Source: Bacteroides fragilis NCTC 9343 (lineage in GTDB: Bacteria > Bacteroidota > Bacteroidia > Bacteroidales > Bacteroidaceae). Taken from it: a stretch of DNA of 64,000 nt. Below, piece by piece: positions 20,486 to 33,744 of this stretch. Both the position numbers and the translations under genes were made by a program. How positions within the stretch are numbered: the first letter of the stretch is position 1; every line of letters starts with the position of its first letter. The notes below the pieces were generated by a model. The model was not told the DNA's origin. It did not search any database and was given only the letters and a program-made list of their open reading frames with translations. The stretch is from positions 1,612,001 to 1,676,000 of the forward strand of contig NC_003228.3 of assembly GCF_000025985.1 (NCBI RefSeq), in the 5' to 3' direction.

Positions 20486-20604
20486 AAAAATGAATAATTA
20501 CGATTCGCTGCAGATTATGCAGGTTTGTACACTCCTCTATATCCGGATGACGGTTTAAGAGAAGAAAACTTTCTGTGTCGTCTGTGGTGAGAAAACAATC
20601 AAGC

Positions 20605-21609
20605 ATGAATTTGAAATTTTTATATCTGTTATTATTGATATCTGCCCTGTGTATATCCTGTTCCAAGGACGAAGAACCTTCGGATAAGGGCAGTACTTCT
20701 CCCCAAGAGCCGGTTTACACCACCTTTACAGATGCCGGCGAAGTGGTTGTTCCCGGAGTGCTTCCGGCCAATTTCACTCCCCGGTCCGTACGGGTCAAGG
20801 GGGACACTTTGTTTGTTGCCAATACCAATGCCGCTGACCGTTCCGTGCTGTTGCTGAACCTGACGACAGGCGAACTGATCGGACGTATCGATTCATGGGT
20901 ACGGAAAGGTGTCAAAGAGACCTTTAATGCCGAGATAGGCGACATGGCTGTTTCTGACCGTTATATCTTTGTGGGTATGTACAACTCCCGTATTAATATT
21001 TTTGACCGTCGCACCCTTCAGTTTGTCAATGCCATCGGGCGTTCAGACGGAAAGTGGGGAGACGATATTTATAGCATGACCCATTGCTACGGACTTCGTG
21101 AGTGTGGCGAGAGACTGATGGTGCGTGATAAAAATACCATTCGCGGCTATTGGATTTATGAAGCCGTTACCGAACCTGCGTTCCGGGTTCCCTGGATCGG
21201 AAAGGTGAAAGTGCCCGAAGGAGTCGGATATGACTATCAGGCCCGTATCCATGGTATGGCAGAGTATGACGGGCGTATGTATCTGACCGACTGGTACAAC
21301 AAGAGTGTGCAAGTGTTCACTCCGTCGAAAATGGAGATCGTGTTCGGTGAAGAGACACATATCACTTCCGATGCCGTGTTTAAGTACGATGATATTCAAC
21401 CGCTCGGACTGCTTGCCTACGGAGGCGAATTACTGATGTCGGTACAGAAGAGTGGGAAAATACAGCGTTATGATCCGGAGACAGGAGACCTGCTCGGAGT
21501 GCTGGCCGAGTTTCCGGGTAAGGAGATCGGGCGCATGGAGATAGCCCGGGGAATGCTTTACTACATTGACCTCAAAGCCGGGAAACTGATGAAGGCAAAA
21601 GGAGAATAA
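20605..21609 (+). CDS. Beta-propeller lipoprotein, paralogue of the preceding gene
   Basis: A 334-residue lipoprotein with lipobox CISC. It shares with its neighbour the pattern VRVKGDTLFVAN, LNLTTGELIG, IGDMAVSDRYIFV and DRRTLQFVNAIGR, so the two arose by duplication and diverged. The start at 20605 is preferred because the signal peptide begins there; an in-frame GTG at 20575 would add a charged extension. A 119-base gap separates it from the upstream gene, so it could also have its own promoter. A strong hairpin follows. Confidence 0.7.
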   Translation: MNLKFLYLLLLISALCISCSKDEEPSDKGSTSPQEPVYTTFTDAGEVVVPGVLPANFTPRSVRVKGDTLFVANTNAADRSVLLLNLTTGELIGRIDSWVRKGVKETFNAEIGDMAVSDRYIFVGMYNSRINIFDRRTLQFVNAIGRSDGKWGDDIYSMTHCYGLRECGERLMVRDKNTIRGYWIYEAVTEPAFRVPWIGKVKVPEGVGYDYQARIHGMAEYDGRMYLTDWYNKSVQVFTPSKMEIVFGEETHITSDAVFKYDDIQPLGLLAYGGELLMSVQKSGKIQRYDPETGDLLGVLAEFPGKEIGRMEIARGMLYYIDLKAGKLMKAKGE

Positions 21610-21617
21610 AGAACGGC

Positions 21618-21679
21618 GAGAGTGTGTCATGACTCACCACAGAGCAATCTGTGGTGAATACGAGTTTCGACACACCCTC
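21618..21679 (+). terminator. Nested hairpin after the propeller operon
   Basis: The outer arms GAGTGTGTC/GACACACCCTC enclose a perfect inner stem CACCACAGA/TCTGTGGTG. It begins 9 bases after the stop codon. The CACCACAG core recurs in two other intergenic hairpins of this window. Confidence 0.7.
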
Positions 21680-22572
21680 ATTCTTTCATCTGCATGTCCT
21701 ATCCGAAGCAGAAGTAATACTCAGAACCGTCGCTGACATAAAAAGAATCTGCTTTCTTTTCGATAAAAAGAACTGTTCTCTTTTGCCAACCATCCGACAG
21801 CAAGCATTACATCGTCTATATTCAGGCAGGTCAAGCTGCAAAGTTCTTTCACAGAGACTTTTCTTGCATGTATAAGTATTCGTCATACTTTTCTGGAGTT
21901 TTCTCCGATTTTCACTTTTTCCATATTACTATTTATAGCCTATTTAAATTAAATTTGGTGGTAAATTCTTTATCTCCAAGTTGATAATTGTCCTTTTTGT
22001 TTGCTTTTATAAGAAAAAACAGACACAGGCTGAATAAGATAACTTAAGTTTCGGAAGTGAGTTTACGCCGTCTGAACCGGTATCTTCATCTTTGTACCTT
22101 TTTTCAATTAACATTGTTAACGCTTTTTGCAGGTTCGTTCAGGTTCTTGTGCGCAAATAACAAGTCTTTTGCATTTAAAGAACTTCTTATTCACATCCAA
22201 AGAACAAGCTTTAACTCTGTGTTAAAACAAAGCTTTTGAAGACAGAAATCTTACTTTTTAAAGATGTTGATTTTCAGATAGTTTAGTCTAATATTCGCTT
22301 CTTCACCTCACGAATGGACACTTCGGGCGAAAGCCGGGATACTTGCTTTTTTGTCAACTATAAACGAGGGCTTGCACTTCCGAAAACTGAATTAGATTCC
22401 ATGAGTAAAAGAAAACTTACCACCAAACCTGACGAAGAACCTGTTTTCTAAAGTAGGTGTCGTCTCGCGCGTAAGGAGAAATTTTTTTGTGTAAATGATA
22501 GGAGGCTAGGGTACTTACCTATTGGACTACAAACAGATACGTAATATAAAGTAGATGGAAGAAAAGGGGAGG
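21680..22572. other. About 0.9 kb without a convincing gene, upstream of the capsule promoter
   Basis: Only short, weak ORFs occur, none with a family signature. A 16-codon ORF at 22401-22451 (MSKRKLTTKPDEEPVF) reads like the start of a lost gene. A small hairpin CTTCG/CGAAG lies near 22322. The stretch separates the propeller operon from the invertible capsule promoter and may hold untranslated RNA or regulatory sites I cannot identify. Confidence 0.5.
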
Positions 22573-22612
22573 GGTGTTTCAAAAAACGTTCGTCTTTTGG
22601 AACACCTTTTTT
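22573..22612 (+). terminator. Intrinsic terminator overlapping the left inverted repeat
   Basis: GGTGTTTCAAAA (22573-22584) pairs with TTTTGGAACACC (22595-22606), 12 pairs including one G-U, loop of 10, followed by six T (22607-22612). The 5' arm and loop are mostly the left inverted repeat; the 3' arm and T-run lie inside the invertible segment. In the present orientation it would stop rightward read-through before the capsule promoter. Confidence 0.75.
22575..22593 (+). repeat. Left 19-bp inverted repeat of the PSA promoter switch
   Basis: TGTTTCAAAAAACGTTCGT, the exact reverse complement of 22787-22805. In B. fragilis such repeats are recombined by the serine invertase Mpi, which is encoded elsewhere. 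Confidence 0.9.
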
Positions 22613-22746
22613 CGACCTTTTCTAAAAATCATGTTCTTATAGAAAAAACACATATATAAAGATTCTATTTCATGTATATAATACTCTTATAATCAGTACA
22701 CTAAAATAGATAAAGAAAGAAAAACTCAATTTATTTATAAAAATAT

Positions 22747-22777
22747 TTTGTTGTTATAAAAATGTGCCTTACCTTTG
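22747..22777 (+). promoter_or_regulatory. Promoter of the PSA capsule operon
   Basis: TTTG at 22747-22750, exactly 19 bases, TACCTTTG at 22770-22777. Transcription should start near 22784, just inside the right inverted repeat, giving a leader of about 150 bases. Confidence 0.9.
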
Positions 22778-22786
22778 TGTTTATAA

Positions 22787-22805
22787 ACGAACGTTTTTTG
22801 AAACA
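22787..22805 (-). repeat. Right 19-bp inverted repeat of the PSA promoter switch
   Basis: ACGAACGTTTTTTGAAACA, partner of 22575-22593. It lies just downstream of the predicted transcription start, so it forms the 5' end of the leader RNA. Confidence 0.9.
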
Positions 22806-22848
22806 ATTTCATTCGTTTTACCACTAAAAATAGTTTCGGAAATTCTTA

Positions 22849-22883
22849 CGGTTTGAATGGGAAAAGATGTCTCGTCCAAACCG
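22849..22883 (+). promoter_or_regulatory. Leader hairpin ahead of upaY
   Basis: CGGTTTG (22849-22855) pairs with CAAACCG (22877-22883) in the 5' leader. UpxY proteins are known to prevent premature termination in their own leader, so a structured RNA here is a candidate loading or pausing site. No T-run follows, so it is not itself a simple terminator. Confidence 0.45.
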
Positions 22884-22931
22884 CGTAGCGCACCCGAAAG
22901 TAACCTCTCGACTTTTAATATCCACTAATAA

Positions 22932-23450
22932 ATGTCTGAACAACAGGAGTATTGGTTTGCCGCTCGGACAAAGAAGGACCAGGAGTTTTCTGTTCGCAAT
23001 GCTTTAGAAAAGCTTGGAATAGAATACTTTCTTCCAACACAATTTGTCATCCGTCAACTGAAATATCGTCGTCGTAGGGTAGAAGTTCCTGTTATCAAGA
23101 ATCTTATTTTTGTCCGGACCACGAAAGACCGTGCTTGGTCTATCACGAAGGATGATCATGTTCCTCTTTATTATATGAAGGATCTCTATACCCATACTTT
23201 GTTGATCGTTCCCAACAAACAGATGGAAGATTTCAAGTTTGTGATGGATTTAGCTCCGGAAAATGTAACTTTTGATGATCTTCCCCTTACCGTTGGTACA
23301 AAAGTGCAGGTCGTCAAAGGAGAGTTTTGTGGCATTGAGGGCGAATTGTCCAGCCTTGCCAACCGTACTTACGTAGTGATTCGTATCCACGGAGTTCTTT
23401 CTGCCAGCGTCAAAGTACCTAAAAGTTACCTTCGTATTCTTTCAGCGTAA
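22932..23450 (+). CDS. upaY: UpxY-family antiterminator of the PSA locus
   Basis: A 172-residue NusG-like protein: NGN domain (residues about 5-100, starting EYWFAARTKKDQEFSVRNAL) and a C-terminal KOW domain (VGTKVQVVKGEFCGIEGEL). In B. fragilis each capsule locus begins with its own UpxY, which lets RNA polymerase read through the leader of that locus only. First gene after the invertible promoter; upaZ follows after 19 bases. The base composition is close to the genome average, unlike the AT-rich structural genes behind it. Confidence 0.92.
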   Translation: MSEQQEYWFAARTKKDQEFSVRNALEKLGIEYFLPTQFVIRQLKYRRRRVEVPVIKNLIFVRTTKDRAWSITKDDHVPLYYMKDLYTHTLLIVPNKQMEDFKFVMDLAPENVTFDDLPLTVGTKVQVVKGEFCGIEGELSSLANRTYVVIRIHGVLSASVKVPKSYLRILSA

Positions 23451-23469
23451 TTCGTAATTTCAAAATTAT

Positions 23470-23943
23470 ATGAATCAAGTCCAAAATCTGCAACACATTG
23501 CCCGTGAGTTGCTTTATTTGGGTATGGATGGTTCTCCCATCTATACCGATCATTTCCGTCAACTGAACACCGAAGTTTTTCGCTTGTCCGAAGCCCTTTT
23601 CTCTATGAAAGGTGCCACATCCGAGGAAGAAGCAGCGATTTGTCTGTCCCTGTTAATGGGCTATAATGCTACCATTTACAATGATGGCGACAAAGAATCT
23701 AAGATACAAAGCATTTTAGATCGCTCTTTTGCCGTATTGGACCATCTTCCCGCTTCTCTATTGAAATGCCAATTGCTGACTTATTGCTATGGCGAGGTAT
23801 TCGAGGAGGATTTAGCACAAGAAGCACATCAAATAATGGATAGCTGGAAAAATAGGGCACTTTCAGAAGAAGAATTGGAAGTGATGGAGACATTGCAGAC
23901 AATGGAAGATAATCGGTATCCGTGTAGCGAGGTAGAAGATTGA
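23470..23943 (+). CDS. upaZ: UpxZ-family inhibitor of other capsule loci
   Basis: A 157-residue acidic, mostly helical cytoplasmic protein in the second position of the locus. UpxZ proteins are known to block the UpxY antiterminators of other capsule loci, so that one capsule tends to dominate per cell. Sequence features are the leading NQVQNLQHIARELLYLG helix and an acidic C-terminus. Identification rests on position after upaY, size and the typical N-terminal sequence. Confidence 0.9.
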   Translation: MNQVQNLQHIARELLYLGMDGSPIYTDHFRQLNTEVFRLSEALFSMKGATSEEEAAICLSLLMGYNATIYNDGDKESKIQSILDRSFAVLDHLPASLLKCQLLTYCYGEVFEEDLAQEAHQIMDSWKNRALSEEELEVMETLQTMEDNRYPCSEVED

Positions 23944-24010
23944 AGAGTCTTTTTTAGGATGAATTTTCTACCTTCTTTTAAAGGTTTTATGAATATGAAC
24001 TTAGATAATA

Positions 24011-25459
24011 ATGGGACAATCAATAAAGAATAACTTCCTACTGAATCTAAGTACTACAATTACTGGGCTATTATTTCCACTAATAACTTTTCCCTATGCT
24101 TCACGTATATTAATGGCAGATGGTATAGGGCAAGTACAATTTTTCCAATCCATAATTGACTATGTCTCTCTTTGTACTGCTTTGGGAATCCCTTTGTATG
24201 CCGTTAGAGAAATTGCAAGAATAAGGGATAATAAGGAATTAAGAAGTAGAACAACAATCGAAATACTATTGCTTCATGCTATTTTGACTTTAGTCGGATA
24301 TATAGTTGTTTTTATACTTGCTAAGACCGTTGCCAAAATAGAAATAGATGCTTCTCTTTTCTTTTTGTTAAGTACAACTTTATTTTTTAACACGATAGGA
24401 GTTGCATGGTTTTATCAGGCAATTGAAGATTTTAAATACATAACTTTACGTTCCTTATTTGTAAGGATACTATCTTTAGTGGCCTTATTTATCTTTGTTA
24501 AGACCAAGCAAGATCTGTTTTATTATGCTGGAATATTAGTTATTGGTACTGTTGGTAATAATATATTTAATTTTTTTCGATTACGTAAATATATAAAACT
24601 TAGTAAAGGCGAATTTAAGCGTTTGAATCTGTTGAGGCATTTAATACCTGCACTTAAAATTTTTATATTAAATTTGGTTATAAGTATTTATGTGAATCTT
24701 GATTCTGTGATGCTTGGATTTCTTAAAAATGAAGAATCAGTTGGTTATTATGCTGCTGCTACTCGACTTACAAAAGCTATTTTGGGTATAGTTTCTTCAT
24801 TAGGAGCTGTTTTATTACCTCGTTTTAGTAATATGATAACTAATGGTCAAAAAGAAGAATTCCAATTATTGGCAAATAAAGCTGCTAGTTTTACAATTGC
24901 TTTAAGTCTTCCTATGAGTGTGGGACTTATTTTTATGGCAGCACCTATTATACATATTTTTTGTGGAAATGGTTTTGAACCTTCTATTTTGACATTAAAA
25001 TTAGTTGCACCTATTGTTTTATTTATTGGATTATCTGGAATTATTGGAATGCAAATATTGTATCCGCAAGGGAGAGAAAAGTACGTAATTATATCTACTA
25101 TGGTAGGAGCATGTATAAATCTCCTTATAAACTATTTACTAATACCCCAATATGGGCAGTATGGAGCGGCGCTTGGGACTGTTATCGCAGAATTTATGGT
25201 AACGGTTATAATGATTTTGCTGGGAAGAAAATATTTACCTATAAATATTCTCTCCAAGCAGAATTTACACTATCTAATAGGTTCTATAGTGATATCTATT
25301 CTATTAGCTTTTTTGTTTGTCTTCCCTTTACATGAAGTAAATTATTTATTGATAGGTATACTGTTATCTGTTATTGTTTATTACGCATATTTATTAATGA
25401 TAAAAGATACCCTCGCATTACAACTAAAGAAATTATTACTTTCAATATTTAAACAATGA
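24011..25459 (+). CDS. wzx: Polysaccharide flippase of the Wzx type
   Basis: A 482-residue inner-membrane protein with about 12-14 hydrophobic helices, of the MATE/polysaccharide-transport superfamily (opening SIKNNFLLNLSTTITGLLFP). It should move the undecaprenyl-linked PSA repeat unit to the periplasm. From here to about 31.7 kb the DNA is markedly AT-rich. It overlaps the glf-type gene by 4 bases. Third gene of the PSA order. Confidence 0.88.
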   Translation: MGQSIKNNFLLNLSTTITGLLFPLITFPYASRILMADGIGQVQFFQSIIDYVSLCTALGIPLYAVREIARIRDNKELRSRTTIEILLLHAILTLVGYIVVFILAKTVAKIEIDASLFFLLSTTLFFNTIGVAWFYQAIEDFKYITLRSLFVRILSLVALFIFVKTKQDLFYYAGILVIGTVGNNIFNFFRLRKYIKLSKGEFKRLNLLRHLIPALKIFILNLVISIYVNLDSVMLGFLKNEESVGYYAAATRLTKAILGIVSSLGAVLLPRFSNMITNGQKEEFQLLANKAASFTIALSLPMSVGLIFMAAPIIHIFCGNGFEPSILTLKLVAPIVLFIGLSGIIGMQILYPQGREKYVIISTMVGACINLLINYLLIPQYGQYGAALGTVIAEFMVTVIMILLGRKYLPINILSKQNLHYLIGSIVISILLAFLFVFPLHEVNYLLIGILLSVIVYYAYLLMIKDTLALQLKKLLLSIFKQ

Positions 25460-33004: not shown

Positions 33005-33592
33005 TTGATCCGTTTTTTTGATATCGTTTTTTCCCTTTTGGGAATTCTTCTGCTTTCTCCCGTTTTTCTTCTTCTTTATATAGCCATTTGTCTCGAAAGT
33101 AAAGGAGGTGGTTTCTATAAACAGCTCCGTGTGGGAAGGTACGGAGGGGATTTTTATGTTTATAAATTTCGTTCGATGCGTGTAGGGGCTGATAAAAAGG
33201 GGTTGATAACGGTAGGAGGGAGAGATCCGAGAATAACTCGTACCGGATACCTGATCCGGAAGTATAAATTGGATGAATTGCCTCAGTTGTTTAACGTACT
33301 GAAAGGAGATATGAGTCTGGTAGGGCCCCGTCCTGAGGTTCGTAAGTATGTGGATTTATATACCGATGAACAAAAGAAAGTATTGAGTGTACGTCCGGGG
33401 ATTACGGATTATGCTTCTATTGAGTATGTAGATGAAAATATGATTCTTGGAGAGGCTTCGGATCCTGACAGAGCATATATAGAACAGATTATGCCCGATA
33501 AGATACGGTATAATATGAAATATATCTGTAATCGTTCGGTGAAGGAATATTTTAAAATTATATTTCTGACATTTTGGAGCATCATTCGTTAG
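33005..33592 (+). CDS. wcfS: Undecaprenyl-phosphate sugar-1-phosphate transferase
   Basis: A 195-residue monotopic phosphoglycosyltransferase (bacterial sugar transferase family). One hydrophobic N-terminal segment is followed by KFRSMRVGADKKG, YKLDELPQLFNVLKGDMSLV and GPRPEV, with the catalytic Asp-Glu pair in KLDELPQ. It loads the amino-trideoxygalactose phosphate onto undecaprenyl phosphate, the first step of PSA assembly. The only usable start in frame is TTG at 33005; a TAG lies 12 bases upstream and no ATG or GTG lies between. Confidence 0.9.
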   Translation: MIRFFDIVFSLLGILLLSPVFLLLYIAICLESKGGGFYKQLRVGRYGGDFYVYKFRSMRVGADKKGLITVGGRDPRITRTGYLIRKYKLDELPQLFNVLKGDMSLVGPRPEVRKYVDLYTDEQKKVLSVRPGITDYASIEYVDENMILGEASDPDRAYIEQIMPDKIRYNMKYICNRSVKEYFKIIFLTFWSIIR

Positions 33593-33694: not shown

Positions 33695-33744
33695 TCAATA
33701 AAAAAGAAAGGATCAGCAATTGCCGATCCTTTCTTTTTTATTGA
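33695..33744. terminator. Bidirectional terminator between the capsule operon and tRNA-Thr
   Basis: TCAATAAAAAAGAAAGGATC (33695-33714) pairs perfectly over 20 bases with 33725-33744. The A-run on one side and the T-run on the other let it stop both the capsule transcript and the opposing tRNA transcript. Its last base is the discriminator position of the tRNA. Confidence 0.88.

Follow-up and report, generated by a model that had tools for sequence, protein, structure and literature searches.

Among the closest described counterparts of the switch analysed here is that of cwpV in C. difficile, for which RecV, the recombinase, is a tyrosine recombinase. According to the available portion of PMC2784873, the OFF orientation alone is predicted to form a 9-bp stem, with four G-C pairs and a poly-U after it, where the left repeat meets the invertible segment, and this OFF terminator was proposed to switch the gene off. 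Orientation-dependent termination of the Rho type has been described for fimE/fimS in E. coli and for the switch of flgB in C. difficile (PMC5386303 and PMC8844915, in their accessible parts). Given the cwpV, fimE, and flgB precedents, the principle of orientation-dependent termination is already known, and an earlier note on this DNA, which knew of no description of a terminator that exists in one orientation of a capsule switch, went too far in that respect. For the form seen here in Bacteroides, in which the candidate terminator lies inside the segment, behind an invertible promoter, and is built on the site of a serine recombinase, no description was found in searches of an open-licence library, which is weak evidence of absence. 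For the B. fragilis capsule promoters controlled by Mpi, the serine recombinase named for them in the available text of PMC4747536, the excerpts of PMC4747536 and PMC12632263 describe promoters that are invertible, lie between repeats, and stand upstream of upxY/upxZ; in the same excerpts, no mention of a terminator at the capsule-promoter repeats was found, the one "terminator" of PMC4747536 belonging to a sequencing kit. The candidate novelty is a terminator that would ride behind an invertible promoter and be built on that promoter's own recombination site.

The window (the whole 64,000-nucleotide stretch of DNA analysed) is part of contig 1 in a genome that comprises two contigs and 5,241,700 bases, and its capsule locus is presumably PSA of B. 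fragilis. The invertible segment is bounded by a perfect 19-bp inverted pair (left repeat, 22575 to 22593, + strand; right repeat, 22787 to 22805, − strand; 100% complementary), with the centres, TT at 22589 to 22590 and AA at 22790 to 22791, placed by dyad symmetry. Within the segment, a single full promoter match (22747 to 22777, + strand; −33 element TTTG at 22747 to 22750, −7 element TACCTTTG at 22770 to 22777) faces the capsule genes and is directed to upxY, so the assembly represents the ON state. Capsule genes begin at 22932 and encode the antiterminator UpxY (22932 to 23450, + strand; NF033644, PF02357), UpxZ (23470 to 23943, + strand; PF06603), a flippase-type polysaccharide protein, and a UDP-galactopyranose mutase. 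The element appears to be one of the Mpi-controlled capsule promoters, and the genome has three matches to the Resolvase family (PF00239).

At the left junction, a rightward hairpin is predicted on the + strand, with its 5′ arm at 22573 to 22584, its 3′ arm at 22595 to 22606, and a six-T tract (TTTTTT) at 22607 to 22612, directly after the stem. The 5′ arm consists of the outer half-site part of the left crossover site preceded by GG (22573 to 22574) from the upstream flank; the 3′ arm consists of the inner half-site part followed by CC (22605 to 22606) and lies, like the T-tract, within the invertible segment. This bears out the geometry given in the earlier note, in which the left repeat provides the 5′ arm and the segment provides the 3′ arm and six T; more precisely, 10 of the 12 bases of the 5′ arm belong to the repeat and the GG lies outside it. 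What the earlier note missed is that the arms, judged by their sequence, are the crossover half-sites. The 12 pairs (22573 to 22584 with 22606 to 22595) comprise four G-C, seven A-T, and one T·G (22579/22600), the loop (22585 to 22594) has 10 nt, and the folding energy of this ON junction is −14.5 kcal/mol. The structure combines a stable G-C-containing stem, a loop within the range of about 3 to 10 nt, and a U-tract directly after, as in an intrinsic terminator, for which the available part of PMC2784873 quotes at least four G-C pairs and a loop of 3 to 10 nt. The upstream flank (22560 to 22574) stands out for its high G content (GGGGAGGGG), which may serve some purpose besides pairing.

Folding of positions 22560 to 22620 gave −22.9 kcal/mol (z, −3.22), and 1 of 200 shuffles was equally good, a result that overstates what needs a terminator because the recombination-site dyad makes up most of the pairing. 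A chance hairpin was ruled out by the shuffles, although that dyad accounts for most of the fold. Among the 39 hairpins of the 64-kb window (both strands) that have ΔG of −8 or lower and at least six T within the next 8 bases, the junction hairpin tied for eighth place. The automated terminator scan did not report it, probably because of the scan's loop limit of 8 nt. We rejected a bidirectional terminator, since a C-rich spacer separates the leftward hairpin from its T-rich stretch. In the window as a whole, the terminator candidate with the greatest stability (33704 to 33735) follows the open reading frame (ORF) at 33005 to 33592 and has T-tracts on both strands.

The hairpin and its U-tract span the junction of repeat and segment and face the capsule gene in a single orientation. 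After inversion, rightward T-tract hairpins at the junction reach −1.5 at best, with no comparable capsule-facing terminator, in keeping with the earlier claim that the terminator meets rightward transcription in ON alone; the left-facing junction that inversion makes is weaker than the ON junction (−9.2 versus −14.5). A predicted hairpin with poly-U at a repeat/segment junction in one orientation only is also what the available account of cwpV gives. There, however, the promoter lies outside the segment, the terminator is predicted in OFF, and it is proposed to turn the gene off, whereas here the promoter lies inside, the hairpin is present in ON, and its position upstream of the promoter would make it at most insulating. 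The capsule element therefore resembles the cwpV kind without being a cwpV switch. The recombinases differ as well, RecV being a tyrosine and Mpi a serine recombinase. With fimE and flgB, as far as the accessible texts describe them, the locus shares termination set by the orientation of an invertible segment; their termination is Rho dependent, whereas the capsule site has a hairpin and U-tract at the recombination site.

Upstream, the nearest ORF (20575 to 21609, + strand, 344 amino acids) is co-directional and is a possible source of read-through toward upxY; it had no Pfam family at E ≤ 0.001 and one NCBIfam match, far under its cut-off. Between this ORF and the repeat, the other rightward T-tract hairpins have values of −6.0, −7.3, −9.4, and −7.1, all weaker than −14.5, which leaves the junction hairpin as the strongest stop predicted ahead of upxY. 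The gap itself (21610 to 22570) contained no rightward T-tract hairpin matching the junction one and no full TTTG...TAnnTTTG promoter; a few matches there resemble E. coli-type promoters and a single weak site resembles a terminator, and shuffles give similar rates. Searching 21000 to 24500 against Rfam gave no family above its gathering score and one weak let-7 match, taken as chance. In the two nearest orthologues (UpxY 97.7% identical), the T-run is kept and the GG is absent, and the junction folds at −8.4 with either flank; this junction-fold comparison included five elements with hand-assigned promoter sides, none of them among the 108 elements described below.

Elements for comparison were collected by their repeat pair (49 elements from 17 of 158 genus genomes, including the window's genome) and by a promoter-end search matching 47 of 133 genomes, from which 76 further elements (L175 to L250) were taken by eye among the matches listed. 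Of the resulting 125 loci, 17 yielded no element and 108 were kept, 87 with a UpxY match and 21 without; L001, a match that is GC-rich and lacks a promoter end, was excluded. The 87 UpxY-linked elements (18 ON, 69 OFF) gave 43 non-redundant ones at <80% identity; these are still related, so the p-values below are optimistic. The seventh capsule locus of the window's genome, which has a different core, stands outside the counts of 87 and 43, and a wider contig scan, which returned mostly unrelated organisms among the matches listed, was used for no count. Flank A denotes the flank away from upxY, flank B denotes that on the upxY side, and the inner ends are termed distal or promoter. The feature is not family-wide, the exact repeat-pair pattern being present in 12 of 398 genomes of the family sample, all from the window's genus.

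Crossover sites of the Hin/hix type have two half-sites around a central dinucleotide, and the title of a 2003 paper reportedly likens the repeats of B. fragilis to those of hin. The present site shares that layout, with hairpin arms that are mainly the two crossover half-sites, about 14 bp each side of the central TT; we know of no T-tract or terminator role at hix. Among the 43 elements, with positions numbered outwards from the central TT, the outer and inner half-sites pair at positions 1 to 5 and 9 to 14 in at least 27, for all four combinations of flank and inner end, and at positions 6 to 8 in 14 to 38; across all 87 capsule elements, a partial dyad is found at both ends. The features of a serine-invertase site (symmetric half-sites, a central dinucleotide, and inverted copies at both ends) are therefore present, with partial symmetry at positions 6 to 8. 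Since the dyad is there at both ends regardless of termination, the hairpin by itself does not speak for termination. In the window, the hairpin equals the crossover site plus GG:CC pairs at positions 15 to 16, and its terminator-like character comes from this extension into the upstream flank together with the T-run. In two elements (L180 and L215, from the Bacteroides genomes G006 and G031), the capsule-side flank and the distal arm covary (TATC/GATA versus TGTC/GACA), which reads as compensation within the OFF-state dyad and is what a recombination site should show.

Runs of at least five T starting at distal positions 13 to 20 occurred in 15 of the 43 non-redundant elements, against 31 of 559 background segment windows and 0 of 43 promoter ends, the last being a weaker control than the background windows because the −7 box constrains the sequence there. 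The fragilis group, defined by us as G000, G017, G022, and G134, had such runs in 19 of its 22 elements and supplied 19 of the 31 found among the 87; outside it, they were present in 12 of 65 elements versus 45 of 845 background windows (p = 0.00035). Hairpins of −6 or lower with a T-tract were formed by flank A and the distal end (ON, capsule facing) in 18 of 43 elements and by flank B and the distal end (OFF, facing away) in 14 of 43, and at the promoter end by flank A in 1 of 43 and by flank B in 0 of 43. Lying on the promoter-distal end, the T-tract therefore travels with the promoter, always behind it and with the same facing. The terminator-like unit, on this sequence evidence, belongs to the distal end, and only ON would let it face upstream read-through to the capsule genes.

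The window's genome has eight UpxZ loci, and elements were found at seven. A run of five or six T follows the distal half-site at six of these seven invertible capsule loci, namely, five of the six with the standard core and the seventh locus, with core CGATCG and six T. The comparison with the other capsule promoters that the earlier note asked for is thus mostly favourable and fails at one locus (L002), which has the most stable fold of flank A with the distal end among the six standard-core loci (−17.3) yet no T-run. At the seventh locus (L260; G000:C1:4360400-4364500, with UpxZ at 4360210 to 4360518), the central AT of the core is self-complementary, as opposed to TT/AA in the other six, and the OFF junction is more stable than the ON junction (−16.7 versus −13.8).

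With modest confidence, we favour the reading that the left crossover site of the capsule-promoter recombinase also serves as the stem for an intrinsic terminator. The hairpin itself is, it seems, a by-product of the recombination site, and measurable termination in ON cells at this locus, for which the mechanism is plausible, has about an even chance. In ON cells, the junction terminator would stop some of the RNA polymerase coming from upstream, and capsule transcription would therefore start mainly at the invertible promoter. Inversion would leave OFF cells with the weaker hairpin, pointing away from the capsule genes, and with an open upstream junction; the invertible promoter, firing against upstream read-through, would reduce it. 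A site for recombination only, in which the dyad serves recombinase binding, the T-run is incidental or inherited, and termination is negligible, is a real possibility, somewhat short of probable. It accords with the partial dyad at both ends in all flank combinations and with the matching of flanks to distal ends, where folds of an element's own flank with its own distal end beat swapped flanks by about the same excess on the upstream (A; z, −3.00) and capsule (B; z, −2.80) sides in permutations stratified by repeat type; the promoter end gave no excess of own over swapped flanks (z, −0.92 and 1.15). Symmetry matched to both flanks is what one would predict of a recombination site, with the promoter end held by the −7 box. 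Nor was any association found between T-run and stem strength (−9.29 in elements with a run of five versus −10.25 in the others; p = 0.34), and most runs of five come from the one species group. Against recombination alone stand the T-run enrichment that persists outside the fragilis group and the first pair past the dyad, where the upstream flank is complementary more often than the capsule-side flank (24 of 43 versus 11 of 43). In favour of insulation, flank A is the G-rich one next to the site (0.41 versus 0.14 G in flank B at positions 15 to 22; 43 elements); the distal end folds better with flank A than with flank B (29 better, 10 worse, 4 tied; p = 0.0014), a point for the terminator reading as well; against both, flank A is also the better when folded with the promoter end.

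The T-tract may alternatively act as DNA, as a bend beside the crossover site or a host-factor site aiding inversion or its direction, and its presence at one end only would suit such a role, as would the accessory factors known for Hin-type invertases; we consider this very unlikely, a run of five being absent in 28 of 43 elements, including one capsule locus of the window's genome. Selection for insulation, whether it prevents read-through from occluding the invertible promoter or keeps capsule expression strictly dependent on the switch, seems rather unlikely. The terminator-like unit does stand behind the promoter in both orientations, T-runs are enriched, and the upstream gene at the window locus is co-directional. 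However, T-runs of at least four showed no link with the direction of the upstream ORF (co-directional, 8 of 13; divergent, 10 of 22; p = 0.49; 8 of the 43 elements were without an ORF to judge by). As raw totals, pairing summed over both junctions was also nearly equal in ON (−16.20) and OFF (−15.82) and so gives no sign of an ON-specific excess. The two orthologues without the GG, locus L002 with its stable fold and no T-run, and the seventh locus with its stronger OFF junction count against insulation and against the terminator reading too. The suggestion of the earlier note that inverting insulation is a function of the switch hence drew no support from upstream direction, stem strength, or ON/OFF pairing totals.

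A broader generalisation, which we consider unlikely, is that Mpi-type capsule promoters are portable self-insulating cassettes whose rear crossover site would serve twice, the recombinase using it as DNA and the polymerase as RNA. Inversion would then move promoter and terminator together and change which neighbour is shielded, and ON and OFF would differ in read-through as well as in initiation. If termination works, a second output has to enter models of capsule phase variation, with OFF cells differing in upstream read-through as well as in promoter direction, and this would bear on how tightly expression of a single capsule locus is kept. A dyad recombination site could become a terminator by a few added T, a route open to any serine-invertase switch; hairpins at invertible repeats should not be called terminators without a U-tract test.

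The feature is not confined to capsule loci, as 7 of the 21 elements without UpxY in the fetched flank carry a T-run of five. Two elements without a UpxY match (L156 and L162) have the same site type and are flanked on each side by long outward-pointing ORFs, so either neighbour may be served by the promoter. Two 137-bp elements in contig 1 of the window's genome (L193 and L194; G000:C1 near 89801 and 4866106, respectively) have the same promoter-end motif and no UpxY match, and the distal core of L193 is CGTTCCT.
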